Source: Streptomyces tendae
GTDB taxonomy: Bacteria; Actinomycetota; Actinomycetes; Streptomycetales; Streptomycetaceae
Assembly: GCF_008632955.1 (NCBI RefSeq)
Contig: NZ_CP043959.1
Coordinates: forward strand, 1,364,001 to 1,428,000
DNA: 64,000 bases
Reading direction: 5' to 3'
Shown here: piece after piece, positions 1,723 through 14,172 of the stretch
Layout of the letters: each line of letters starts with the position of its first letter
Position numbering within the stretch: position 1 is the stretch's first letter
The notes under the pieces: model-generated
What the model was told of the DNA's origin: nothing
Databases searched by the model: none
The model's input: the letters and a program-made list of their open reading frames with translations, nothing else
Made by a program: the position numbers and the translations under genes

Positions 1723-3372
1723 TCAGCTGACGTTGATCGCCTTCCAGGCCGCCGCGACGGCCTTGTACTCGGTGCTGCTGGAGCCGTACAGCGCCGACGC
1801 CGCGTTCAGGGTGCCCGTACGGGCCGCCTTGTAGTTGGTCGTCGAGGTGAAGTACGTGGTCAGTGCCTTGTACCAGATCTGCAGCGCCTTGGCGCGGCCG
1901 ATGCCGGTGACCGTGGAGCCGTCGTACGTCGGCGAGTTGTAGCTCACGCCGTTGACGGTCTTGCTGCCGCTGCCCTCGGCGAGCAGGTAGAAGAAGTGGT
2001 TCGCCGGGCCCGAGGAGTAGTGCACGTCGACCGAGCCGAGGCTGGAGGACCAGTAGTCCTTGGAGGCGCCGTCCTTGCTCGGCTTGTCCATGTGGCGCAG
2101 CGGCGTGCCGTTGCCGTTGATGTCGATCTTCTCGCCGATGAGGTAGTCACCGGCGTCGGAGGAGTTGGCCGCGTAGAACTCCGCGCCCGTGCCGAAGATG
2201 TCGCTGGTCGCCTCGTTGAGGCCGCCGGACTCGCCGCTGTAGCGCAGGCCCGCGGTGTTGGAGGTGACGCCGTGGCTCATCTCGTGGCCCGCCACGTCCA
2301 GCGAGGTCAGCGGATGGGTGTTGCCCGAGCCGTCGCCGTAGGTCATGCAGAAGCAGCTGTCCTGCCAGAAGGCGTTGACGTAGTTGCTGCCGTAGTGGAC
2401 GCGGGAGTAGGCGGCCTTGCCGTCGTTCTTGATGCCGTTGCGGCCGAAGGTGTTCTTGTAGAAGTCCCACGTGATCTGGGCGCCGTAGGCGGCGTCCACG
2501 GCGGCGGTCTGGTCGCTGGAGGAGCTGGAGGCGGTGCCGGTGCCCCAGGTGTCGTCCGCGTCGGTGAACAGCGTGCCGGTGCCGGAGGTGCCGCGCGCCA
2601 GGTTGTACGTCTTGTGACCGCCGCGTGAGGTGTCGTACAGCTGGTACGTCGAGCCGGACTTGTGGGTGCCCAGGGTGACCGTGCCCGAGTACAGGCCCTT
2701 GCCGGTGCCGGTGTGCACGCCCTGCCACTCGTGGAGCTTCTCGCCGGTGGTGGCGTCGGTGATCACGTGCAGCTCGTTCGGGGTGCCGTCCGCCTGCAGG
2801 CCGCCGACGACGGTCTCGTAGGCGAGGACGGGCGTGCCCTGGGCGGCCCAGACCACCTTGCGGGGCGCGGAGCCGGCCTCGGCCCGCTCCGACCCGGCGG
2901 CCTCGGCGGCGGCGAGCGCCTGCGTCTTCGCCTTGCCCGCGGTGACCTCGGGCGTCACGGAGGAGACCTTGACGGCGGCCTTCACGGCCTTGGTGACGGT
3001 TCTGGTGCCGCCGGCCGGCTCGTGCACGACGAGGTCGCCGCCGAGCACGGGAAGTCCGTCGTAGGTGCGCTCGTAGCGGGTGTGGACGGTGCCGTCCACG
3101 TCCCGCACGACGTCCTTGACGATCAGCTTCTCCTTGGCGCCGAGGCCTATCGCCTCGGCGGTTTCGGTGGCCGTCGCCTCCCGCTCCTGGATGAGGGAGG
3201 TGCGGGCGGCGGCGGACAGCAGCACGGGGGCCCCGCCCAGGACCGGCTTGCCGGCCGGGGCGGAGTCGGCGGTCGCGGCACCGGTGGCCAGGCCGGTGGT
3301 GAGCAGGGCACCGGCCACGACGGCGGTGGCGGCGGCCAGGGCGGTACGGCGACGCGCGTGGAGGGGAGTCAC
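1723..3372 (-). CDS. Secreted M4 (thermolysin-family) neutral metalloprotease 1
   Basis: A 549-residue preproenzyme for an extracellular zinc endopeptidase. Residues 1-36 are a Sec signal peptide (basic start, Ala/Val-rich core). The FTP/PepSY-type propeptide runs to about residue 220 and the M4 catalytic domain to the end. Visible active-site features are HEMSH (zinc ligands H363 and H367, catalytic E364), NEATSD (third ligand E387), the substrate-binding NAFW motif near 333, and HYSSG (H451, equivalent to the thermolysin transition-state histidine). The GTG start at 3370-3372 has GAGGAG six bases upstream. It is a close paralogue of the neighbouring protease but lacks the P domain. Confidence 0.93.
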   Translation of the reverse strand: MTPLHARRRTALAAATAVVAGALLTTGLATGAATADSAPAGKPVLGGAPVLLSAAARTSLIQEREATATETAEAIGLGAKEKLIVKDVVRDVDGTVHTRYERTYDGLPVLGGDLVVHEPAGGTRTVTKAVKAAVKVSSVTPEVTAGKAKTQALAAAEAAGSERAEAGSAPRKVVWAAQGTPVLAYETVVGGLQADGTPNELHVITDATTGEKLHEWQGVHTGTGKGLYSGTVTLGTHKSGSTYQLYDTSRGGHKTYNLARGTSGTGTLFTDADDTWGTGTASSSSSDQTAAVDAAYGAQITWDFYKNTFGRNGIKNDGKAAYSRVHYGSNYVNAFWQDSCFCMTYGDGSGNTHPLTSLDVAGHEMSHGVTSNTAGLRYSGESGGLNEATSDIFGTGAEFYAANSSDAGDYLIGEKIDINGNGTPLRHMDKPSKDGASKDYWSSSLGSVDVHYSSGPANHFFYLLAEGSGSKTVNGVSYNSPTYDGSTVTGIGRAKALQIWYKALTTYFTSTTNYKAARTGTLNAASALYGSSSTEYKAVAAAWKAINVS

Positions 3373-3444
3373 TCGAAGCTCCTCGGGGGGTGAGTGGGGG
3401 TGCGGACGGCTGGGGGGCCGTCCGGTGGTGCGCCGAGCGAGGGA

Positions 3445-3499
3445 AGACTGACACCTGCGACGCGTACATGTCAGGAGGGTCGAATGATGTTGGCCGAAA
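3445..3499 (-). promoter_or_regulatory. Conserved promoter of metalloprotease 1
   Basis: Read on the minus strand: TTTCGGCCAAC (3489-3499), 11 variable bases, CTCCTGACA (3469-3477), 18 bases, then CAGTCT followed by TCCC (down to 3441). The same blocks with the same spacings lie upstream of the paralogous protease at 5840-5894. CTGACA and CAGTCT are plausible -35 and -10 boxes with an 18-bp spacer. That would leave a leader of about 70 nt before the GTG at 3372. Confidence 0.55.
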
Positions 3500-3582
3500 G
3501 GTGACGTCCGAACGAACGGTGCGCGCGGGTGGACCCGCCTGACCTCGGTAAAGGCGCAACCCGACGGACGTATGGGAACGGC

Positions 3583-3629
3583 AAAAAGCGGCGCCGCCCC
3601 GGGCGGTGTGAACCACCCGGAGCGGCGCC
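3583..3629 (-). terminator. Rho-independent terminator of metalloprotease 2
   Basis: An 18-bp stem (3590-3607 with 3612-3629, two wobble pairs) closes a GTGA loop. It is followed on the minus strand by CTTTTTG. It lies just after the stop of the 3644-5689 gene and is one of the few canonical stem-plus-T-tract terminators in the window. Confidence 0.85.
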
Positions 3630-3643
3630 CCGACCTCCGCTGT

Positions 3644-5689
3644 CTACGGGAAGGTCAGGCTCCAGCCGTTGATGTAGCCGGTGTCGTAGCGGGCCGTGTC
3701 CTGCACCCGCAGCCGCCAGGTGCCGTTGGCCGTCTCCGACGAGGCGTCGACCGTGTACGTCTCGTTGATGTTGTCCGCCGAGCCGCCGGTGCGGTTGCGC
3801 AGCCGGTACGCCGTGCCGTCCGGGGCCACCAGGTCGACCACCAGGTCACCGCTCCAGGTGTGCACGATGTCCACCGCGACCTGGAGGTTGCCGGGCGCGT
3901 TGCCGGTCCGGCCGGAGACGGTGATCGAGGACGTCACCGCGGCGCCGGCGTCGGGGATCGCCACGTCGGCGGTGTTCTCGAAGGTGGTGCCGCCGCCTCC
4001 GCCGCCACCGGAGCGCGCGCCCACGTTGACGCCCGCCCACGCGTCCTGCACCGCCTTGTACTCGGCGCTGTCCGTGCCGTACAGCTCACCGGTGGCCGCC
4101 AGGGTGCCGGTGCGGGCGCCCGCGTAGTTGGTGGTCGAGGTGAACTTGGTGGTCAGCGCGCGGAACCAGATCTTCTCCGCCTTGGCGCGGCCGATGCCGG
4201 TGACCGGAAGGCCGTCCGACGTGGGCGAGTTGTAGGTCACCCCGTTGATGGTCTTGGTGCCGCTGCCCTCGCTGAGCAGGTAGAAGAAGTGGTTCGCCGG
4301 GCCCGAGGAGTAGTGCACGTCGACCGACCCGATGCCGGAGTACCAGCTGTCCTTGGAGGCGCCGTCCTTGCTCGGCTTGTCCATGTAGCGCAGCGGCGTG
4401 CCGTCGCCGTTGATGTCGATCTCCTCGCCGATGAGGTAGTCACCGACGTCCTCGGAGTTGTTCGCGCCGAACTCCACCGCCGAGCCGAAGATGTCGCTGG
4501 TCGCCTCGTTCAGACCGCCGGACTCGCCGCTGTAGACCAGGCGGGCGGTGACCGACGTCAGGCCGTGCGTCATCTCGTGGCCGGCCACGTCGATGGCGGT
4601 GAGCGGGTTGACGTTGCCGGAGCCGTCGCCGTAGGTCATGCAGAAGCAGCTGTCCTGCCAGAAGGCGTTGACGTAGTTGTTGCCGTAGTGGACCCGGGAG
4701 TAGGCGCCCACACCGTCACCGCGGATGCCGGAACGGCCGTGCACGTTCTTGTAGTAGTCCCAGGTCAGCGCGGCCCCGTAGTGGGCGTCGGCGGCGGCCG
4801 ACTCCGCGTTCGACGGGGAGCCGTTGCCCCAGACGTCGTCCGGGCCGGAGAACAGCGTGCCGGTGCCGGAGCTGCCCCGGTTCAGGTTGTACGTCTTGTG
4901 CCCGCCGCGCGCGCCGTCGGTGAGGTTGTACGTCGACCCGGACTGGGTGGTCGTCAGGTCGACGGTGCCGCTGTAGACGGTGTGGCCGGTGCCGTTCTGC
5001 ACGGCCTGCCACTCGAAGAGCTTCTCGCCGGTGGTGGCGTCGGTGACGACGTGCAGCTCCTGCGGGGTGCCGTCGTGCTGGAGACCGCCGACGACCGTCT
5101 CGTAGGCCACGACCGGCCTGCCGTCGGCGGCCCAGATCACCTTGCGCGGCGCCCGGTCGACGTCCGCGCCCTCGGCCTGCTCGGCCTTCGCGGCGGACAG
5201 GGCCTGCTGCTCGGCCTTCGCGGCCGGCACCTTCGCGGTGGTGGTGGCGGGCTTCACCGCGGCCCGGGTGGCCTTGACGACAGAGTCGGCCTCGCCGGCG
5301 TGGTCGCCCTGGACGACCAGGTCGCCGCCGAGGACGGGCAGTCCGTCGTAGGTGCGCTCGTAGCGCACGTGCACGGTGCCGTCGCGGTCCTTGAGGACGT
5401 CACGGACGACGAGCTTCTCCTTCGCGCCGAGCCCGAGGTCACGGGCGGTCCGCGCGGTGCCGGCGCTCGCCTCGCGGATCAGCTCGGCGCGCTGGGCGGG
5501 GGTGAGCCGGACCGGCTCCGTGCCCGGGGCGGCCGCGCTCTGCGCCCGGGGCGTCTGCTCCGGGGCGGCGGTGGCGGTGCCGGACTGCACGGCCGTGGCG
5601 ATCAGCGCGGCCACCCCGGCGAGGGCGACGGCGGCGGCACGGCGGTGTGTGGCGTGGGGGGTGCGTCTGTGGGACGTCCTGCTTCTCAA
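3644..5689 (-). CDS. Secreted M4 metalloprotease 2 with C-terminal P domain
   Basis: A 681-residue extracellular zinc protease. It has a signal peptide (about 1-41), an FTP/PepSY propeptide (about 50-235), an M4 domain (about 240-558), a glycine linker (561-567) and a proprotein-convertase P domain (about 570-681, with a WSGDLVVDLVAPDG strand and ending NGWSLTFP). Active-site residues are H371/E372/H375 (HEMTH), E395 (NEATSD) and H459 (HYSSG). The TTG start at 5687-5689 is supported by GAAGGAG six bases upstream (5696-5702). It is a tandem duplicate of the 1723-3372 gene; gain or loss of the P domain is the main difference. Such P domains often stabilise the enzyme or aid substrate binding. 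Confidence 0.93.
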   Translation of the reverse strand: MRSRTSHRRTPHATHRRAAAVALAGVAALIATAVQSGTATAAPEQTPRAQSAAAPGTEPVRLTPAQRAELIREASAGTARTARDLGLGAKEKLVVRDVLKDRDGTVHVRYERTYDGLPVLGGDLVVQGDHAGEADSVVKATRAAVKPATTTAKVPAAKAEQQALSAAKAEQAEGADVDRAPRKVIWAADGRPVVAYETVVGGLQHDGTPQELHVVTDATTGEKLFEWQAVQNGTGHTVYSGTVDLTTTQSGSTYNLTDGARGGHKTYNLNRGSSGTGTLFSGPDDVWGNGSPSNAESAAADAHYGAALTWDYYKNVHGRSGIRGDGVGAYSRVHYGNNYVNAFWQDSCFCMTYGDGSGNVNPLTAIDVAGHEMTHGLTSVTARLVYSGESGGLNEATSDIFGSAVEFGANNSEDVGDYLIGEEIDINGDGTPLRYMDKPSKDGASKDSWYSGIGSVDVHYSSGPANHFFYLLSEGSGTKTINGVTYNSPTSDGLPVTGIGRAKAEKIWFRALTTKFTSTTNYAGARTGTLAATGELYGTDSAEYKAVQDAWAGVNVGARSGGGGGGGTTFENTADVAIPDAGAAVTSSITVSGRTGNAPGNLQVAVDIVHTWSGDLVVDLVAPDGTAYRLRNRTGGSADNINETYTVDASSETANGTWRLRVQDTARYDTGYINGWSLTFP

Positions 5690-6029: not shown

Positions 6030-7793
6030 TCACGGCGCGGTGGCCGGCCGGTCCCCGTGCCAGGACCGCCACAGCGCGGCGTACACCCCGTCCGCCGCCA
6101 CCAGGGCGTCGTGCGTGCCGAGTTCGGAGAGCCGGCCGTCCTCCATCACCGCCACCCGGTCCGCGTCGTGCGCGGTCTGCAGCCGGTGCGCGACGGCGAT
6201 GACCGTACGGCCCCGGAGCACGGCGCCCAGGGCGCGCTCGGTGTGCCGGGCGGTCGTCGGGTCGAGCAGCGCGGTGGCCTCGTCGAGGATCAGCGTGTGC
6301 GGATCGGCCAGCACCACACGCGCCAGCGCCAGCTGCTGGGCCTGCGGGCCGTCCGTGGCGTGACCGCCCTCACCCAGCTCGGTGTCCAGGCCGTGCGGCA
6401 GCTCCCGTACCCAGCCGTCCGCGCCGACCACGGCCAGCGCCGCCCACAACTCCGCGTCCCCGGCGGCCGGTTCGGCGATCCGCAGATTGTCCCGTACCGA
6501 CCCCAGGAAGACGTGGTGTTCCTGGGTCACCAGCACCACCTGCCGGCGCAGCCGCTCCGGGTCCAGCGACGCCACCGGTACCCCGCCCACGGTCACGCTC
6601 CCGGCGGTCGGCGCGTCCACGCCCGCCAGCAGCCGGCTCAGCGTGGTCTTGCCCGCGCCCGACGGTCCCACCACCGCCATCCGTTCGCCCGGCCGCACCG
6701 TCAGATCGACCCCGCACAGCACCTCGCCGCCCCCGTCGTAGGCGTAGCGCACCCCGGTCACGTCGATACGGTCCCCGTCCGGATCCGGGCCGGCGCCCCG
6801 CTCCGCCGCGCGCGGCGCCAGCGCCAGCCCCTCCACGCGCGCGAACGAGGCGCCGCTGCTCTGCAGTTGCTCCAGCACCATCAGCACCTCGTCCAGCGGA
6901 CCGGCGAGCTGCAGCAGGTACAGCGAGGTGGCCACCACCGCCCCGAGACTCACCGCGCCCTGCCCGTGCAGCCAGCCCCCGCACAGCAGCACCCCGGCCA
7001 CCGGCACCACGTACGACACCTCGACCACGGGGAAGAACACCGAGCGCAGGTACAGCGTGCGGAACCGGGTGCGGCGGGAGGCCTCCAGCGCCTCGCGGCT
7101 CGCGCGGACCCGCCGCTCCTGGAGCCGGAACGCCTCCACCGTGCGCGCGCCCGACGCCGTCGACGCGACCACCTCCGCTACGTCCGAGTTCGCCGCGCCC
7201 TCGGCGAGATAGGCGCCGCGGGCCCGTCGCAGGTACCAGCGCAGCACCGGCCCGATCGGGGCGAGGCAGAGCAGTCCCAGCGCGCCCAGCAGCGGGTCCA
7301 CCGCGAGGACCGCACCCATGACGAACAGCGACTGCACCAGGTTGACCAGCAGCGACGGTCCGGCGTCCCGCAGCGTGGTGCCGACGGTCGTCACGTCGGC
7401 CGTGCCCCGGGTGGTCAGGTCGCCGGTGCCCGCCCGCTCCACCACGGCGGACGGCAGCGCCAGCGCCCGGTCCACGAACCGCTCCCGCACCCGCGCCAGC
7501 GTCCGCTCCCCGAACCGGTGCCCCACGTAGCGGGCCCAGCGCGCCAGCAGCAACTGCGCCACCGCGCACGCCAGGATCACCGGCGCCAGCCGGTCCACCA
7601 CCGCGGTCCCGCCGCCCGCCCGCACCTCGTCGACGATCCGCCCGAGCAGCCACGGCCCGGCCAGCCCGGCCAGGGCCGCCGCGCCGTTCAGCGCCAGCAC
7701 CCCCGCGAAGGCCCGCCGGTCCGCCCGCACCAGCTCCCCGGCCGCCCGGCGCACCTCGGCCCGCCCCGCCAGGGGAAGCCGCCCCCCGCTCAT
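6030..7793 (-). CDS. ABC exporter half-transporter, catalytic subunit of an asymmetric heterodimer
   Basis: A 587-residue protein with a type I exporter membrane domain (about 25-310) fused to a nucleotide-binding domain. Walker A is GPSGAGKT (376-383), the Q-loop is Q424, Walker B is LILDEA with D504 and catalytic E505, and the H-loop is H536. The signature motif is degenerate: TDGPQAQQ (480-487) replaces LSGGQRQR. It overlaps the upstream half-transporter by ATGA (7790-7793), so the two are almost certainly translated together and pair. The substrate is unknown; drug, lipid or peptide export are all possible. See the finding on site complementarity. Confidence 0.92.
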   Translation of the reverse strand: MSGGRLPLAGRAEVRRAAGELVRADRRAFAGVLALNGAAALAGLAGPWLLGRIVDEVRAGGGTAVVDRLAPVILACAVAQLLLARWARYVGHRFGERTLARVRERFVDRALALPSAVVERAGTGDLTTRGTADVTTVGTTLRDAGPSLLVNLVQSLFVMGAVLAVDPLLGALGLLCLAPIGPVLRWYLRRARGAYLAEGAANSDVAEVVASTASGARTVEAFRLQERRVRASREALEASRRTRFRTLYLRSVFFPVVEVSYVVPVAGVLLCGGWLHGQGAVSLGAVVATSLYLLQLAGPLDEVLMVLEQLQSSGASFARVEGLALAPRAAERGAGPDPDGDRIDVTGVRYAYDGGGEVLCGVDLTVRPGERMAVVGPSGAGKTTLSRLLAGVDAPTAGSVTVGGVPVASLDPERLRRQVVLVTQEHHVFLGSVRDNLRIAEPAAGDAELWAALAVVGADGWVRELPHGLDTELGEGGHATDGPQAQQLALARVVLADPHTLILDEATALLDPTTARHTERALGAVLRGRTVIAVAHRLQTAHDADRVAVMEDGRLSELGTHDALVAADGVYAALWRSWHGDRPATAP

Positions 7794-9511
7794 CCCGCCA
7801 CCTCCTCGGCCGCGCCCCGTCCGGCGTCCCTGGCCACCAGCTCGCGGTATCCCGCCTCACCGTCCAGCAGTTCGCGGTGGGTGCCGCTCGCCACCACCTT
7901 GCCGTCGACCAGGAAGAGCACCCGGTCGGCCCGGTCCAGCACCAGCGGAGAGCTGGTGGCCAGCACCGTCGTACGGCCCTCGCGCGCGGCGCGCAGCCGG
8001 TCGGCGACCAGGGCCTCGGTGTGCGCGTCGAGCGCCGAGGTCGGCTCCACCGCCAGCAGCACCTCCGGTTCGGCGAGCAGGGCCCGGGCCAGCCGGACCC
8101 GCTGCCGCTGCCCGCCGGAGAGGCTGCGGCCCTGCGCGGACACCACCGAGTCCAGCCCGTCCGGCAGCCCGCGCACCACGTCGTCGGCGGCCGCCGCGTG
8201 CAGCGCGCCCAGCACCTCCTCGTCCGACGCCCCGCCCCGGCCCGCGACGACCTCGCGCAGCGGGCCGGCGAACAGCGCGGCCTCCGGGTCGGCGACCAGG
8301 ATCCGCTCCCGCACCCGCGCCAGCGCGATCTCGTCCAGCCGGACCTTGCCCCAGATGACGTCCGACGGCGTGTACCGGCCCAGCCGGTCCACCACGGCGA
8401 GCGCGTCGGCGGGCCGGGCGCACACCAGGGCGGTCAGCCGCCCCGGCAGCACCCGCACCCCGGACTCCGGGTCCTCCAGCGCGGACGGTTCGGACGGCGC
8501 GTCCGCGGTGGCCCGGTCGGCCGGCGGCTCCAGGCGCAGCAGCGCCGTCACCCGCCGGGCCGCCACCACGCCCCTGCTCAGCTGGTAGCCGCACTCGATC
8601 AGGAACATCACGGGCCACACCAGGACGGTCACATAGCCGTACACCGACACCAGTTCGCCCACGCTGATCCGGCCCTGCGCGGCCATCCGCGCCGCCATCC
8701 AGGTCACCACCGCGAGGAACAGCGTCGGCAGCCCCGCCGCCAGCGCCTGCATCCAGCTCGTCACGGCCCCGACCCGGTACCCCTGCTCCCGCAGCCTCCC
8801 CGAGTCACGGCGGAACGCCTCCGCGACCAGCCCCTTGCCGCCCAGCCCGCTCAGCACCCGCAGCCCGCCCGCCAGGTCCCCGATGCGCGCGGTCAGCACA
8901 CCCTGCCGCTCCCGGTACTCCGTCTCGGTGCCCTGGAGCCGTCCGCTCAGCGGCCCCACGACCAGCCCGATCACCGGCACCCCCAGCAGTACGACCAGGG
9001 CCAGCGCCGGCGACACCGTCAGCAGCAGGCCCGCGACCACCGCGTACGCCACGACCGCGCCGATGCCCGGTCCGACCGCGGTGAGCGACTGGGCGATCAC
9101 CTGCACGTCGCCCACCCCGATGGTCACCACCTCCCCGGCCCCCGTCCGCCGCTCCAGCGCCGAGCCGAGCTTCACCGTGTGCCCGACGACCACCTTCACC
9201 GTGCGGAAGTTGGCGTCCATCCGGACCAGGGTCATCGTGCGGTGGCGCATGAGGCCCAGCCAGGCGTTGAAGCCGCTCACCAGGACCAGGGCGCCCGTCC
9301 AGCCAGCCAGCGCGGCCGTGTCGCCCGTCTGCAGCCCGTCGTCCACCGCCCGCGCCATCAGGTACGGCGTCGCCGCCAGCAGCACCAGCCACGCACTGCC
9401 GTACACCGCCCCCGCCGCGCACCGCCCCGGCTGCTGCCGCACCAGCCACCACAGATACCGCGCCCCTCCCCGCCGGTCGGGCGTGCCCGGATCCTCGTAC
9501 GCGTCGATCAC
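7790..9511 (-). CDS. ABC exporter half-transporter with a dead nucleotide-binding domain
   Basis: A 573-residue type I exporter half with six predicted membrane helices (about 30-310) and a nucleotide-binding domain that keeps LSGGQRQR (464-471) but has lost the rest of the ATP site. The Walker A region reads LVCARPADALAVVD (about 362-375) with no GxxGxGK(S/T). Walker B is LLAVEP with V488 in place of Asp, and the H-loop position is Ser (about S521). The frame is intact and the domain is full length, so this looks like specialisation rather than decay. The GTG start at 9509-9511 is preceded by GGGAGGAAA. It is translationally coupled to the catalytic half. Confidence 0.9.
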   Translation of the reverse strand: MIDAYEDPGTPDRRGGARYLWWLVRQQPGRCAAGAVYGSAWLVLLAATPYLMARAVDDGLQTGDTAALAGWTGALVLVSGFNAWLGLMRHRTMTLVRMDANFRTVKVVVGHTVKLGSALERRTGAGEVVTIGVGDVQVIAQSLTAVGPGIGAVVAYAVVAGLLLTVSPALALVVLLGVPVIGLVVGPLSGRLQGTETEYRERQGVLTARIGDLAGGLRVLSGLGGKGLVAEAFRRDSGRLREQGYRVGAVTSWMQALAAGLPTLFLAVVTWMAARMAAQGRISVGELVSVYGYVTVLVWPVMFLIECGYQLSRGVVAARRVTALLRLEPPADRATADAPSEPSALEDPESGVRVLPGRLTALVCARPADALAVVDRLGRYTPSDVIWGKVRLDEIALARVRERILVADPEAALFAGPLREVVAGRGGASDEEVLGALHAAAADDVVRGLPDGLDSVVSAQGRSLSGGQRQRVRLARALLAEPEVLLAVEPTSALDAHTEALVADRLRAAREGRTTVLATSSPLVLDRADRVLFLVDGKVVASGTHRELLDGEAGYRELVARDAGRGAAEEVAG

Positions 9512-9578: not shown

Positions 9579-10463
9579 TCACCGGCGCTTGCGGAACGGG
9601 GCGAGGGTGGCGCGCACGAGATCGGCGGCGCCCCAGTCCGGATCGAACTGCGCGACGACGGCCAGATGCTGACGCAGCTGCAGGACCGGCATCCGCTCGC
9701 GCCAGCCGGCGTCGAGCCCGGTCAGCTCCGCGTACCGTTCGAAGAACACCCGCGCCTCGGGCGGCGGCGAGGTCGTCCACAGGTGGGCCAGGTCGACCTC
9801 GGCCCAGGTGTACGACACGGCCGGGTCGATCAGCGCGGGCCGGCCGTCGGGGGCGGCCATGACGTTCTGCGTCCACAGGTCGCCGTGCGTCAGGCAGGCC
9901 GGCGCGGCCGGCAGCAGCTCGGGCAGGCGGTCGCACAGTCGCTCCAGCGCCGCCCGGTCCTCGGCGTCGAGCGCCTGGCGGACCCGCGGTTCGCCGAGCC
10001 AGCGCAGCAGCCGGTGCCGGGCGAAGAACTCGAAGCCGTCGTCGGTCCAGGTGTTGACCTGCCGGCGGCGGCCCAGCCAGTTGTCCCGGTGCCAGCCGAA
10101 CCGGTCGTGCCGTGTGCTGGTGTGCAGCCGGGCGAACGCGTGCGCGCACTCCTCCCAGAACGCCTCCGTGTCCGGCCGGGGACGCAGCGCCGACAGCACG
10201 AGCAGGTCCCGGTCCGCGAGGACGACGTCGGGCGTGGCGACGCCGCCCGCCTCACGCAGCACGGCCAGCCCTTCCGCCTCGGCGGCGAAGGCCTCGTCGG
10301 ACGGCGGCTCGTCGAACGCCTTGACGAACAGCGGCGTGCCGTCCGCGCGGCGGGCGAGGCCCGCGGTCGCGGCGAGGCCCCCGACGGCCGGCTCGACCGC
10401 CACGACGTCCGTCACACCGGCCGCGTGAAGACGTGCGCGCAGCATCGACGTCGCCTCGGTCAC
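9579..10463 (-). CDS. Fructosamine-kinase family protein
   Basis: A 294-residue cytoplasmic kinase-like protein. It has the aminoglycoside-phosphotransferase fold hallmarks HGDLWTQN (193-200, catalytic loop with D195) and LIDPAVSY (D213, metal-binding Asp), plus the fructosamine-kinase GWHRDNWLG segment. Members phosphorylate sugar-derived amines, such as fructosamines or ribulosamines, for deglycation. The start is taken as GTG 10461-10463 because GAGAGGAG sits seven bases upstream; an in-frame extension to 10556 has no such site. It lies 67 bp upstream of the asymmetric ABC exporter on the same strand and may be cotranscribed with it, but a functional link is only a guess. Confidence 0.85.
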   Translation of the reverse strand: MTEATSMLRARLHAAGVTDVVAVEPAVGGLAATAGLARRADGTPLFVKAFDEPPSDEAFAAEAEGLAVLREAGGVATPDVVLADRDLLVLSALRPRPDTEAFWEECAHAFARLHTSTRHDRFGWHRDNWLGRRRQVNTWTDDGFEFFARHRLLRWLGEPRVRQALDAEDRAALERLCDRLPELLPAAPACLTHGDLWTQNVMAAPDGRPALIDPAVSYTWAEVDLAHLWTTSPPPEARVFFERYAELTGLDAGWRERMPVLQLRQHLAVVAQFDPDWGAADLVRATLAPFRKRR

Positions 10464-10534
10464 GGGTGTGCTCCTCTCGGTCGGTCCCGCCGAGGCACCG
10501 GAAGCGGGCCCGCGGCGGCTCTCGGGACGGGGCG

Positions 10535-12388
10535 TCAGGCCAGGCTGTCCCGCCACGCCCGGTGCAGGTCCGCGAACCGGCCCGTGCCGGCGATCAGTTC
10601 GGCCGGGCTGCCGTCCTCCACGACGCGGCCCTTCTCCATCACCAGCACCCGGTCCGCGATCTCCACGGTGGACAGCCGGTGCGCGATGACCACCGCGGTA
10701 CGGCCCCGCAGCACCGTGGCCATGGCCCGCTGCACCGCCCGCTCCCCGGGGACGTCCAGCGAACTGGTCGCCTCGTCCAGGATCAGCACCGCCGGGTCCG
10801 CGAGCAGCGCCCGCGCGAACGCCACCAGCTGGCGCTGACCGGCCGAGATACGGCCGCCCCGCTTGCGCACGTCCGTGTCGTAGCCGTCGGGCAGCGCCGC
10901 GATGAAGTCGTGCGCGCCGATCTCCTTGGCCGCCTGCTCGATCTCCTCGCGGGTGGCCTCCGGACGCCCGATCGAGATGTTCTCGGCGACCGTGCCGGAG
11001 AACAGGAACGCCTCCTGGGTCACCATCACCACCTCGCGCCGCAGATCCCGTCCCGTCAGGTCGCGCAGGTCCACCCCGTCCAGCAGCACCCGCCCGTCGG
11101 AGGGGTCGTAGAACCGGGCGAGCAGCTTCGCCAGCGTCGACTTGCCGGCGCCGGTGGACCCGACGACCGCGACGGTCTGCCCGGCAGGCAAGGTGAGGGC
11201 GAAGCGGGGCAGCACCTCGCCGCCGGTGCGGTACGCGAACCGCACGTCGTCGAAGACCACGTCCCGGCCGGGCAGGCCGGTACGCCGCTCCGGCAGCTCA
11301 CGGGCCACCGCCGGCTCGGGAACGGACGGGGTCTGCGCCAGCAGTCCGGCGATCTTCTCCAGCGAGGCCGCCGCCGACTGGTAGGAGTTCAGGAACATGC
11401 CCAGCCGGTCGATCGGGTCGTACAGGCGCCGCAGGTACAGCACCGCCGCCGCCAGCACACCGAGCGCCAGCGTGTCCTCGGCGACCCGGTAGGCGCCCCA
11501 CAGCACGATCAGCGCGACGGTGGTGTTGGCGGTCACCCGGGAGCCGACGACGTAGCGGGCCATCTCGATCAGCGCGTCGCCGTTGGTCCGCTCGTGCCGC
11601 CGGTTCAGCACCGCGAAGTCGGCGTCGTTGGCGGCCTCGCGGCGGAAGGCGCGCACCGGCCGGATGCCGTTCATCGTCTCGACGAACTTCACGATCACCG
11701 CGGCGATCGCCGTCGACCGCAGGCGGTACACCCGCCCGGCCCGCCGCTGGTACGACCGCACCAGCAGGTACAGCGGCACGAACGACGCCACCGCGACCGC
11801 GCCGAGCCCCAGGTCCAGCCACAGCAGCAGCGCCGAGATGTACACGGCGGACAGGATGACCATGACCAGTTCCTGCAGGCCCTCCTCCAGCAGCTCCCGC
11901 AGCGACTCGACGTCGGTGGTGGAGCGGGAGATGATCCGCCCCGAGGTGTAGCGCTCGTGGAAGTCCACGCTCAGCGCCTGCGCGTGACGGAAGATCCGCC
12001 CGCGCAGGTCCAGCAGCACGTCCTGGCTGACCCGGGCGGAGGCGGTGACGAACAGGTACTGCAGCCCGCCGGCCGCCGACGCGCACAGCAGATAGCCCGC
12101 CGCGACCGCGATCAGCGGCCCGTGGTCGTCGGCGCGGAACGCGGGCACGGCGCGGTCGATCGCGTACGCCACCAGCAGCGGGCCGGCCTGCACGGCGGCC
12201 TGCTGGAGCAGCAGCAACAGCGCGGTCACCGCGACCCGGCCGCGCATCGGCGCGAGCAGGGAGCGCAGCAGCGTGCCGGTGGCGCCCGGGGGAGTGGGCA
12301 GCACGTCCTGGTCGAAGGGGTCGCCGGACTCCTTCGGTGTCCGGTCGTCGTCCTCGTCCCGGACGGGTGCGGTGGTGGCCGCGGTCAT
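10535..12388 (-). CDS. ABC exporter half-transporter, catalytic-type ATPase domain
   Basis: A 617-residue multidrug-type exporter half with a charged N-terminal extension (about 1-35), a membrane domain (about 45-345) and an ATPase domain. Walker A is GSTGAGKS (410-417), the Q-loop is Q458, Walker B is LILDEA (D538, E539), and the H-loop is H570. The signature is altered to ISAGQ (514-518). The ATG at 12386-12388 is preceded by AGGAGG seven bases upstream and overlaps the stop of the previous gene (ATGA). It should form a heterodimer with the 12385-14172 product; substrate unknown. Confidence 0.92.
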   Translation of the reverse strand: MTAATTAPVRDEDDDRTPKESGDPFDQDVLPTPPGATGTLLRSLLAPMRGRVAVTALLLLLQQAAVQAGPLLVAYAIDRAVPAFRADDHGPLIAVAAGYLLCASAAGGLQYLFVTASARVSQDVLLDLRGRIFRHAQALSVDFHERYTSGRIISRSTTDVESLRELLEEGLQELVMVILSAVYISALLLWLDLGLGAVAVASFVPLYLLVRSYQRRAGRVYRLRSTAIAAVIVKFVETMNGIRPVRAFRREAANDADFAVLNRRHERTNGDALIEMARYVVGSRVTANTTVALIVLWGAYRVAEDTLALGVLAAAVLYLRRLYDPIDRLGMFLNSYQSAAASLEKIAGLLAQTPSVPEPAVARELPERRTGLPGRDVVFDDVRFAYRTGGEVLPRFALTLPAGQTVAVVGSTGAGKSTLAKLLARFYDPSDGRVLLDGVDLRDLTGRDLRREVVMVTQEAFLFSGTVAENISIGRPEATREEIEQAAKEIGAHDFIAALPDGYDTDVRKRGGRISAGQRQLVAFARALLADPAVLILDEATSSLDVPGERAVQRAMATVLRGRTAVVIAHRLSTVEIADRVLVMEKGRVVEDGSPAELIAGTGRFADLHRAWRDSLA

Positions 12389-14172
12389 CGCTGGTCCTCC
12401 TGTTCCCCCGCCGGGTCGCCGGACATGAGGTGGGCGTACTCGGGGTTGCCGCGCAGCAGTTCGTGATGGGTGCCGACCGCGGTGATCCGCCCGCCGGAGA
12501 GCAGCGCGACACGGTCGGCGAGCAGGACCGTGGACGGGCGGTGCGCCACGATCAGCGCCGTGGTGTCGGCGAGCACCCGGCGCAGCGCGGCCTCGACCGC
12601 GGCCTCGGTGTGCACGTCCAGCGCGGACAGCGGGTCGTCCAGCACCAGGAAGTCGGGCTGCCCGACGACGGCCCGGGCGAGCGCGAGGCGCTGCCGCTGT
12701 CCGCCGGAGAGGCTGAGGCCCTGCTCCCCGACCTGGGTGCCGGTGCCCCGGGGCAGGGCGTGGGCGAAGTCGGCCTGGGCGACGGACAGGGCGCGCGCCA
12801 GGTCCTCCTCGCCGCTGCCCCCGCCCATCAGGACGTTCTCGCCGACGCTCGCGGAGAACAGGGTCGGCTCCTCGAAGGCCACGGCGACCTTGGAGCGCAG
12901 TTCCTCCCGGGACATCGCGGTGATGTCCTGCCCGTCGAGGGTGATGCGCCCCTCGGTGACCTCGTGCAGCCGCGGCACGAGCGCCGTGAGCGTCGTCTTG
13001 CCGCTGCCGGTCGCCCCGACCAGCGCGAGCGACTCCCCGGGCCGGATGTGCAGGTCGACGCGGTCCAGCACGGGGGGCGACCCCTCGGGGGCGTCGGGGT
13101 AGCGGAAGGTGACGTTCTCGAACCGCAGCCCGCCCTCCCGGGGCCGGCCGTGTCCCCCGGCGGACGCCGTGGCCTTCGACTCCGGCTCGGCGTCCATCAC
13201 CTCGAAGTACCGTTCGGTGGCCGTCGCCGCCTCCTGGCTCATCGCCAGCAGGAAGCCGATCGAGTCCACCGGCCAGCGCAGCGCCAGTGCCGTGGACAGG
13301 AACGCCACCAGCGTGCCCGCCGACAGGGCGCCGTCCGCCACCTGCACGGCGCCCAGCACCAGCGCCGCCCCGACGGCCAGTTCGGGCAGCGTCACGATCA
13401 CGCCGAGGATCGTCGCCAGCAGCCGGGCCTTGTGCAGCTCCGTGCCCCGCAGCTGCCCGGACAGCTCGCGGAACGCGCGCGCCTGGGTGCGGTGCCGGCC
13501 GAACCCCTTGATGATGCGGATGCCGAGGACGCTCTCCTCCACGACGGTCGTCAGGTCGCCCACCTGGTCCTGGGCGAGCCGCGCCGCGCGCGAGTACCGC
13601 TTCTCGAAGACCACACAGGTGATCAGCACGGGCACGGCGGGCACCAGGACGACCAGCCCCAGCGTCCAGTCCTGCACCAGCATGATGGTCACGCCGACCA
13701 GGATCGTCACCCCGTTGACCAGCAGGAAGGTCAGCGGGAAGGCGAGGAACATGCGCAGCAGCATCAGGTCCGTGGTGGCCCGGGACAGCAACTGGCCCGA
13801 GGGCCAGCGGTCGTGGAAGGCGATCGGCAGCCGCTGCAGATGCCGGTACAGGTCCGCCCGCATCTCCGCCTCGACGTGCGACAGCGGCCGGGCGACCAGC
13901 CAGCGCCGGAACCCGAACAGCAGCGCCTCCGCGAGCCCGAGCAGCAGCAGGCACAGGGCGCCGAGCCACACTCCCGCCGGATCGCGGTCGGCGATCGGCC
14001 CGTCGACCATCCACTTGAGCACGAGCGGGATGACCAGCCCGATGCAGGACGCCAGGACGGCGATGAACGCGGCGGTGAACAGACGCGTCCGCACGGGCCG
14101 CACGTACGGCCACAGCCGCAGCAGCGTCCGCACGGCGGAGCGGGGTTCCCGGGGAGAGGGTGTAGTGGCCAT
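12385..14172 (-). CDS. ABC exporter half-transporter, non-catalytic-type ATPase domain
   Basis: A 595-residue exporter half with six predicted membrane helices (about 30-310). Walker A is GATGSGKT (386-393), the signature is LSGGQ (488-492) and the H-loop is H544. Two catalytic positions are changed: the Q-loop is E434, and Walker B reads VLDDP so D513 replaces the catalytic Glu. These substitutions are typical of the degenerate site in heterodimeric exporters such as LmrCD and TM287/288. Together with the partner's ISAGQ signature they imply one weak and one active ATP site. It is the first gene of a two-gene operon. The 231-bp gap 14173-14403 must hold divergent promoters, but I cannot assign the boxes. 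Confidence 0.92.
   Translation of the reverse strand: MATTPSPREPRSAVRTLLRLWPYVRPVRTRLFTAAFIAVLASCIGLVIPLVLKWMVDGPIADRDPAGVWLGALCLLLLGLAEALLFGFRRWLVARPLSHVEAEMRADLYRHLQRLPIAFHDRWPSGQLLSRATTDLMLLRMFLAFPLTFLLVNGVTILVGVTIMLVQDWTLGLVVLVPAVPVLITCVVFEKRYSRAARLAQDQVGDLTTVVEESVLGIRIIKGFGRHRTQARAFRELSGQLRGTELHKARLLATILGVIVTLPELAVGAALVLGAVQVADGALSAGTLVAFLSTALALRWPVDSIGFLLAMSQEAATATERYFEVMDAEPESKATASAGGHGRPREGGLRFENVTFRYPDAPEGSPPVLDRVDLHIRPGESLALVGATGSGKTTLTALVPRLHEVTEGRITLDGQDITAMSREELRSKVAVAFEEPTLFSASVGENVLMGGGSGEEDLARALSVAQADFAHALPRGTGTQVGEQGLSLSGGQRQRLALARAVVGQPDFLVLDDPLSALDVHTEAAVEAALRRVLADTTALIVAHRPSTVLLADRVALLSGGRITAVGTHHELLRGNPEYAHLMSGDPAGEQEDQR

Follow-up and report, generated by a model that had tools for sequence, protein, structure and literature searches.

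An actinobacterial family of heterodimeric ABC exporters in which one ATP site lacks the P-loop and nearly all other nucleotide contacts

We analyzed a 64,000-nucleotide stretch of the Streptomyces tendae genome (contig NZ_CP043959.1, positions 1,364,001 to 1,428,000 of the forward strand; the window, whose numbering is used throughout) in which two adjacent genes, here called h1 and h2, encode the halves of an ATP-binding cassette (ABC) exporter. An initial annotation made from the sequence alone had taken h2 to be the coupled partner of h1, and its open reading frames (ORFs) and coordinates agree with those found here. The h1 gene starts with GTG, and the 4-bp overlap between the two genes is expected to couple their translation. 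The pair comprises:

7790..9511, minus strand: h1, a half-transporter of 573 residues with a transmembrane domain (TMD) and a nucleotide-binding domain (NBD); its own ATP site is dismantled, and it is the putative donor in trans of LSGGQ and the D-loop
6030..7793, minus strand: h2, a half-transporter of 587 residues with intact Walker A, Walker B, A-, Q-, and H-loops and a lost signature
7790..7793, minus strand: the 4-bp overlap of the h1 stop with the h2 start

Both proteins matched the ABC membrane profile PF00664 above cutoff over nearly its full length, and a TMD of this kind fused to an ABC NBD identifies them as half-transporters of type I ABC exporters, with which the predicted fold of h1 agrees. 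The ABC_tran profile PF00005 covered h2 at profile positions 3 to 137 of 137. It also matched h1 above cutoff, yet only at positions 91 to 137, that is, from about the signature onward. The motifs of the two NBDs are as follows:

8396..8422, minus strand: h1 residues 364 to 372, CARPADALA at the Walker A position (former P-loop), predicted to form a two-residue turn and then a helix (residues 367 to 377)
8279..8296, minus strand: h1 residues 406 to 411, VADPEA, former Q-loop without Gln
8099..8122, minus strand: h1 residues 464 to 471, LSGGQRQR, intact signature
8027..8062, minus strand: h1 residues 484 to 495, VLLAVEPTSALD, Walker B and D-loop, with Val488 in place of Asp, and Glu489 and the D-loop Asp kept
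7943..7963, minus strand: h1 residues 517 to 523, LATSSPL, former H-loop, with Ser520 in place of His; Ser-Pro is invariant in homologues
6642..6668, minus strand: h2 residues 376 to 384, GPSGAGKTT, intact Walker A
6333..6356, minus strand: h2 residues 480 to 487, TDGPQAQQ in place of LSGGQ, Gln-rich and conserved
6261..6293, minus strand: h2 residues 501 to 511, LILDEATALLD, intact Walker B and D-loop, with the D-loop Asp511 kept
6177..6197, minus strand: h2 residues 533 to 539, AVAHRLQ, intact H-loop

The A-loop of h2 reads YAY and its Q-loop VTQEH. The h1 protein has thus lost the A-loop, Walker A, the Q-loop Gln, the Walker B Asp, and the H-loop His. The initial annotation had named the missing Walker A of h1, Val for the Walker B Asp, Ser at the H-loop, and the intact LSGGQRQR, together with an h2 that keeps Walker A, Walker B with its Glu, and the H-loop His behind the signature TDGPQAQQ. 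Each of these features was found as described, and the A-loop and Q-loop losses in h1 add to them.

The same motifs were then counted in an alignment of 230 distinct open-frame exporter halves (276 before deduplication), which came from the majority of the fetched loci as well as from the window. Halves were classed by their best match among four window proteins, independently of motif, and ORFs of fewer than 330 residues, local matches starting after residue 110 or ending before residue 540, and central-region duplicates were excluded. The regions were picked by hand from search listings; motif state was known beforehand for ten loci from the genus search and for the paralogue in the same genome, and further regions were known members fetched with wider flanks or closest orthologues. 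The position filter removed six h1-type rows (L102, L107, L109, L122, L124, and L126), all of which share the lost state. Loci L009 to L037 lie outside the census, and those fitting the printed motif pattern show the same state of h1.

None of the 90 h1-type halves has an aromatic A-loop residue, the Walker A Lys, the Gly triad, the Q-loop Gln, or the H-loop His in the alignment, and all 90 have both SGG and the D-loop Asp. The h2-type halves show the converse: the A-loop Tyr, Walker A, Q-loop Gln, Walker B Asp, and H-loop His are each present in 92/92, the Walker B Glu in 91/92 (the remaining one is an unreadable letter), and the D-loop Asp in 73/92, while SGG is absent from all 92, so that the second site is noncanonical including its signature. 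The Walker A Lys and Gly triad are present in all 48 halves from outside the family in the same alignment. Wherever both halves could be scored, in 87 of 87 loci, h2 lies directly after h1 and the two are complementary, leaving one consensus composite site; L069, with a masked h2 signature, and L223, with a split h2, stand outside these pairs. Distance matrices of h1 and h2 are correlated at 0.94.

Because the pattern recurs across homologues while halves from outside the family retain Walker A, sequencing error, chance, or a local mutation is ruled out as the cause of the h1 losses (90/90 h1, 92/92 h2, and 87/87 pairs). An orthologue with an intact Walker A would have spoken for such an error, and neither the Lys nor the Gly triad occurs in any distinct h1. 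The initial annotation's claim of exactly complementary losses holds in every adjacent pair, but its statement that the other site had lost every contributing part was slightly too strong, since Glu489 of h1 and the D-loop Asp511 of h2 remain. The replacement of the Walker B Asp, correctly read in the window, is likewise not a property of the whole family: Asp survives in 25 of the 90 h1-type halves. Retention of the P-loop and bound ATP at the degenerate site are common properties of degenerate heterodimers and not part of their definition, and replacement of the Walker B Glu in the degenerate half is frequent and not universal. In this family the P-loop is gone and the acidic catalytic position is kept, as E489 in the window and as Glu in 68 and Asp in 22 of the 90 homologues.

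Close orthologues of h1 and h2 come from Streptomyces, and the same genome carries a second h1, 41% identical, with its partner. A search with h1 at E ≤ 1e-60 matched 87 of 101 genus genomes. At E ≤ 1e-42 it matched 137 of 147 genomes from the order, most of which belong to the same genus, and 95 of the 196 taken from the class; at E ≤ 1e-40 it matched 40 of 246 genomes from the phylum. The looser cutoffs also admit ordinary exporters. Twenty regions were fetched from the phylum search, 18 from outside the class and 2 from the genus. Family members showing the complete h1 loss are present in nine of them, eight from outside the class; the other 11 contain ordinary exporters, and Walker A is present in all halves seen there. 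A search for intermediates at class and phylum level revealed no Walker A that had been lost in part. Degeneration elsewhere in the site is graded, since Tyr replaces the H-loop His in the ordinary first halves at L233 and L237, and in that of L233 Asn replaces the Walker B Glu as well. A contig scan gave at least 80 loci, and the 24 of 80 inspected (L118 to L141) included 11 family members (L118 to L126, L131, and L132), all from actinobacteria. One locus (L206, G056:C1:6993400-7009400) carries two family pairs in tandem, with h1/h2 identities to the window pair of 65/70% and 35/47%. Annotated h1 homologues in a plasmid search (4 of 9 records) are named simply "ABC transporter ATP-binding protein," a label that is misleading for h1.

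In eight orthologue comparisons, the ratio of nonsynonymous to synonymous substitution rates (dN/dS) was 0.30 to 0.38 for the h1 NBD, 0.26 to 0.34 for the h1 TMD, and 0.14 to 0.27 for the h2 NBD. The h1 NBD is under purifying selection. Mean entropy in the signature and Walker B/D-loop regions was 1.09 and 0.76 in h1 and 1.12 and 0.82 in h2, which shows that h1 retains constraint on the parts acting in trans; in the Walker A and Q-loop regions it was relaxed in h1 (1.94 and 1.61) relative to h2 (0.78 and 0.74). The replacements are themselves conserved, with Pro at the fourth position of the former P-loop in 76/90 h1 homologues, Ser-Pro at the former H-loop in 90/90, and, in the Gln-rich sequence that replaces the h2 signature, Gln at the seventh position in 92/92. 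The segment preceding the former P-loop is about 12 alignment columns shorter in h1 than in h2. General decay of h1 was considered and is rejected by the dN/dS values and by this conservation.

An AlphaFold2 model of h1, built on an alignment of 12 sequences (mean predicted local distance difference test score of 83, predicted template modeling score of 0.58), predicts a normal half-exporter whose NBD keeps the ABC fold. A strand at residues 359 to 364 is followed by two residues and then by the helix at 367 to 377, so the P-loop appears to have become a short turn. The modeled NBD superposed on that of ComA (3vx4) with 1.9 Å over 221 residues and on that of TAP1 (2ixe) with 2.1 Å over 228 residues. 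The top Foldseek matches of the model were TM287/288, MsRv1273c/72c, and TmrAB, with a template modeling score of about 0.6, and in a second structural comparison CydDC (7zdt) was among the tied best (Z 28.6, root mean square deviation 7.2, 546 residues aligned).

The pair is flanked in the window by the following genes:

10535-14172, minus strand, the same as h1 and h2, upstream: CANA/CANB, a TM287/288-like heterodimeric ABC exporter
9579-10556, between CANB and h1: a gene of the fructosamine-kinase family (PF03881)
1723-5689, downstream of h2: two tandem M4-type metallopeptidase genes, recognized by eye from HEMSHG and HEMTHG

At 13 of 27 loci fetched with wider flanks, CANA, CANB, h1, and h2 follow one another on one strand with a CANB-h1 gap of less than 200 bp. 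Exceptions include L202, where the CANA/CANB pair is inverted, L205, where CANB lies about 5.5 kb away, and L218, where there is none. At ten more distant loci among the 27 (L208 to L217), h1 and h2 are present, and a search for halves more than 40% identical to CANA or CANB found none. The 27 loci gave no kinase match at E ≤ 1e-15, and given the short CANB-h1 gap elsewhere, the kinase gene of the window looks like an insertion. At least one M4 metallopeptidase homologue lies downstream of the pair at 15 of the 27 loci, and an ABC-2 ATPase and permease lie beyond CANA at 8.

A phylogenetic tree of 105 halves, computed without the motif columns, separated the 43 h1 rows from all others by a single branch and did the same for the 40 h2 rows, each branch with a Shimodaira-Hasegawa-like approximate likelihood ratio of 100. 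The h2 rows group with three TM288-like halves, including CANB of the window (support 99), and the h1 rows adjoin TM287-like halves with weak support (90, at an open fork). The sequences indicate that the loss is ancestral to the actinobacterial family; the Walker B Asp of h1 was lost in some branches only. The simplest account is a single ancestral pair with a mildly degenerate site, as in TM287/288, from which the remainder of that site was lost later. In one subfamily, 19 of the 92 h2-type halves, the h2 D-loop ends in Gly instead of Asp, and h1 keeps its D-loop Asp throughout. This loss would fall on the side of the dead site if the D-loop is assigned to the Walker site of the other half, as in the excerpt of PMC12038006 used here (all papers are cited from excerpts). 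The loci of this subfamily are:

L059, L099-L105, L107-L110, L114, L115, L121, L123, L125, L126, L131, L132, and L216: h2 without the D-loop Asp, reading AEAG or ADAG

All six loci of this subfamily at which neighbors were scanned (some at each, chosen by hand) have iron-siderophore genes close by: an ornithine/lysine monooxygenase (L121 and L126), a siderophore-interacting protein and nonribosomal peptide synthetase (NRPS) domains (L131), a FecCD permease (L132), and a Peripla_BP_2 binding protein (L123 and L216). We take Peripla_BP_2 and FecCD neighbors to be linked to iron-siderophore uptake. Other neighbors included an NRPS module (L210), genes for a radical-SAM protein and a DegT aminotransferase (L208), and a DegT aminotransferase (L211); at L213, L214, and L217, the scanned neighbors carried no hint of a natural product. 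At L122 and L124, h1 directly follows an NRPS gene (the NRPS is shown for L122), with no h2 within the fetched flanks. Both genomes have an h2-type half about 11 kb upstream, with the same contig number and strand, the signature LDVTKVAQ, and an intact Walker A. As this half lies on the far side of the NRPS sequence, the pair appears to be split around the NRPS. Our best guess is that the h1/h2 family exports small molecules, since siderophore loci and other loci for natural products contain related members.

Each ABC site takes Walker A and B and the A-, Q-, and H-loops from one NBD and the signature and X-loop from the other (PMC7756269). By this rule, the live site would combine the A-loop, Walker A and B, and Q- and H-loops of h2 with the LSGGQ and D-loop of h1 in trans, and its mirror image has, by sequence, lost P-loop, A-loop, Q-loop Gln, H-loop His, and signature. 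Neither half should be able to form an active site as a homodimer; h1 with h1 or h2 with h2 yields no complete site, which makes the heterodimer obligate under the composite-site rule. ATP would be bound and hydrolyzed solely at the site of h2 Walker motifs and h1 LSGGQ, one molecule per cycle. The motifs and the h1 model together argue strongly that the dismantled site cannot bind ATP: with the phosphate-gripping loop lost, it would be nucleotide free and would act as a hinge of protein contacts. This hinge may be formed by what is left of the P-loop, a short turn with Pro where the helix begins, by the Ser-Pro at the former H-loop, and by the Gln-rich motif at the former h2 signature, with the NBDs opening and closing like a clamshell at the live site. 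We consider it likely that h1 and h2 together form a type I (type IV fold) ABC exporter that is obligately heterodimeric, with a single functional ATP site and a protein-protein hinge in place of the other.

Several observations weigh against this reading. Our census covers open frames only, with broken copies left out, and a few h1 hits in the genus and order searches are fragments or contain a stop (e.g., G009:C1:6880528 and G078:C1:5932511), so single copies can be lost. By dN/dS the h1 NBD is less constrained than the h2 NBD. Constraint persists in the H-loop region of h1 (entropy 1.02), so the dead site may bind a different ligand or serve another function. A purely structural hinge would not obviously need the Glu or Asp that every homologue has at the catalytic position of the h1 Walker B, and the h1 model was built on 12 sequences, with a predicted template modeling score of 0.58.

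Among the alternatives, a nucleotide might still sit in the degenerate site and serve as a stable hinge, as in TM287/288, BmrCD, or Pdr5, with contacts outside the P-loop keeping it in place. Pdr5 binds ATP although all motifs of its NBS1 are changed, with its linker domain helping (PMC8421411), and the conserved Walker B Glu/Asp and invariant Ser-Pro of h1 point to a pocket still under constraint. However, for Pdr5 the change given in Walker A is that of Lys to Cys (PMC7756269), whereas h1 lacks the whole Gly triad, the Lys, the A-loop aromatic residue, and the Q-loop Gln. SGG is moreover missing from every h2, the pre-P-loop segment is shortened, and the model has two residues in place of the loop, all of which makes nucleotide retention unlikely. 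It is considerably less probable that h1/h2 forms a regulatory or nontransport assembly in which the h1 NBD uses its former ATP site to sense a different ligand: the Ser-Pro and the acidic Walker B residue would suit such a sensor, but both halves carry a near-complete PF00664 domain, the h1 model resembles exporters, and one subfamily sits in siderophore loci. That h1 is an incipient pseudogene and h2 pairs with another half, such as the neighboring TM287-like one, might be suggested by the weaker constraint on the h1 NBD, the few broken h1 hits, and the TM287/288-like pair directly upstream at nearly half of the wider loci, but is highly improbable given the h1 NBD dN/dS, the retention of SGG in every open h1 frame of a family reaching beyond the class, and the union of h1 with h2 at every locus with both halves, including those that lack close relatives of CANA and CANB.

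We return to the reading of one working site and a hinge, whose wider form we favor with somewhat less assurance: that this is a large, ancient actinobacterial exporter family operating with strictly one nucleotide per transporter, in which the second site would be a nucleotide-free hinge and an ATP-bound degenerate hinge would be dispensable. In the review model, degenerate exporters retain ATP in the weak site as a hinge (PMC7756269, section 30), although the role of the degenerate site and the need for its ATP were described there as unclear in 2020. Since the degenerate exporters described in the excerpts, Pdr5 included, hold ATP in the weak site, the h1/h2 family could put the ATP-hinge model to the test. 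A natural family that lacks the whole Walker half of one site offers a direct test of the need for two bound ATP molecules; if its transport runs on one ATP, then alternating access in this fold does not depend on a second nucleotide. The conserved replacements (the P-loop Pro and H-loop Ser-Pro of h1 and the Gln-rich motif of h2) make a protein-only hinge testable by mutation.

In the open-access literature we recognized no description of an exporter NBD without a P-loop or of the h1/h2 family; closed-access work could exist. Two literature leads, PMC7230496 and PMC10763038, proved unrelated in the parts available. RamA/RamB and StrV/StrW are possible relatives.

The contrast that the initial annotation drew with known degenerate exporters stands. 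ATP in the degenerate site is described for such exporters in excerpts of PMC7756269, PMC8421411, PMC12038006, and PMC10638440, the last three dealing with Pdr5, MsRv1273c/72c, and BSEP, respectively, and in all human cases the degenerate site has noncanonical residues, including the signature (PMC7756269, section 7). TM287/288, BmrCD, TmrAB, and Rv1273c/Rv1272c resemble h1/h2 in having two halves, with the consensus site formed by the Walker motifs of one and the signature of the other. Their degenerate half is described with Walker A and ATP (PMC7756269 and PMC12038006), whereas h1 lacks the P-loop and nearly all contacts; the distinction of h1/h2 from LmrCD, TM287/288, and BmrCD rests on descriptions and on sequence and fold matches to the Protein Data Bank. 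CydDC, a heme exporter, is likewise described as a heterodimer with ATP hydrolysis at one site, but Walker A is given for both of its halves (PMC13337084). Pdr5 is similar in that all the main motifs of one site deviate: the Walker A Lys is changed to Cys, the Walker B Glu to Asn, and the His to Tyr, and the signature reads LNVEQ (PMC7756269, section 23). It differs in domain order and in being a single full-length protein, with ATP seen in the degenerate site by cryo-electron microscopy (PMC8421411). The h1/h2 pair falls outside the Pdr5 (PDR) subfamily, in which the NBD precedes the TMD in a full-length polypeptide, because its TMD precedes the NBD and its halves are two genes. Closest at hand, CANA/CANB shows the same polarity as h1/h2, with a weakened Walker B (LDDP) and Q-loop (AFEEP) in the upstream half and ISAGQ for LSGGQ in the downstream half, but Walker A, the A-loop, and the H-loop are intact in both, the ordinary state of TM287/288-like exporters. 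The h1/h2 pair is akin to heterodimeric exporters with a degenerate site in its way of working and, by its place in the tree, in its descent, and it represents an extreme variant of that group.

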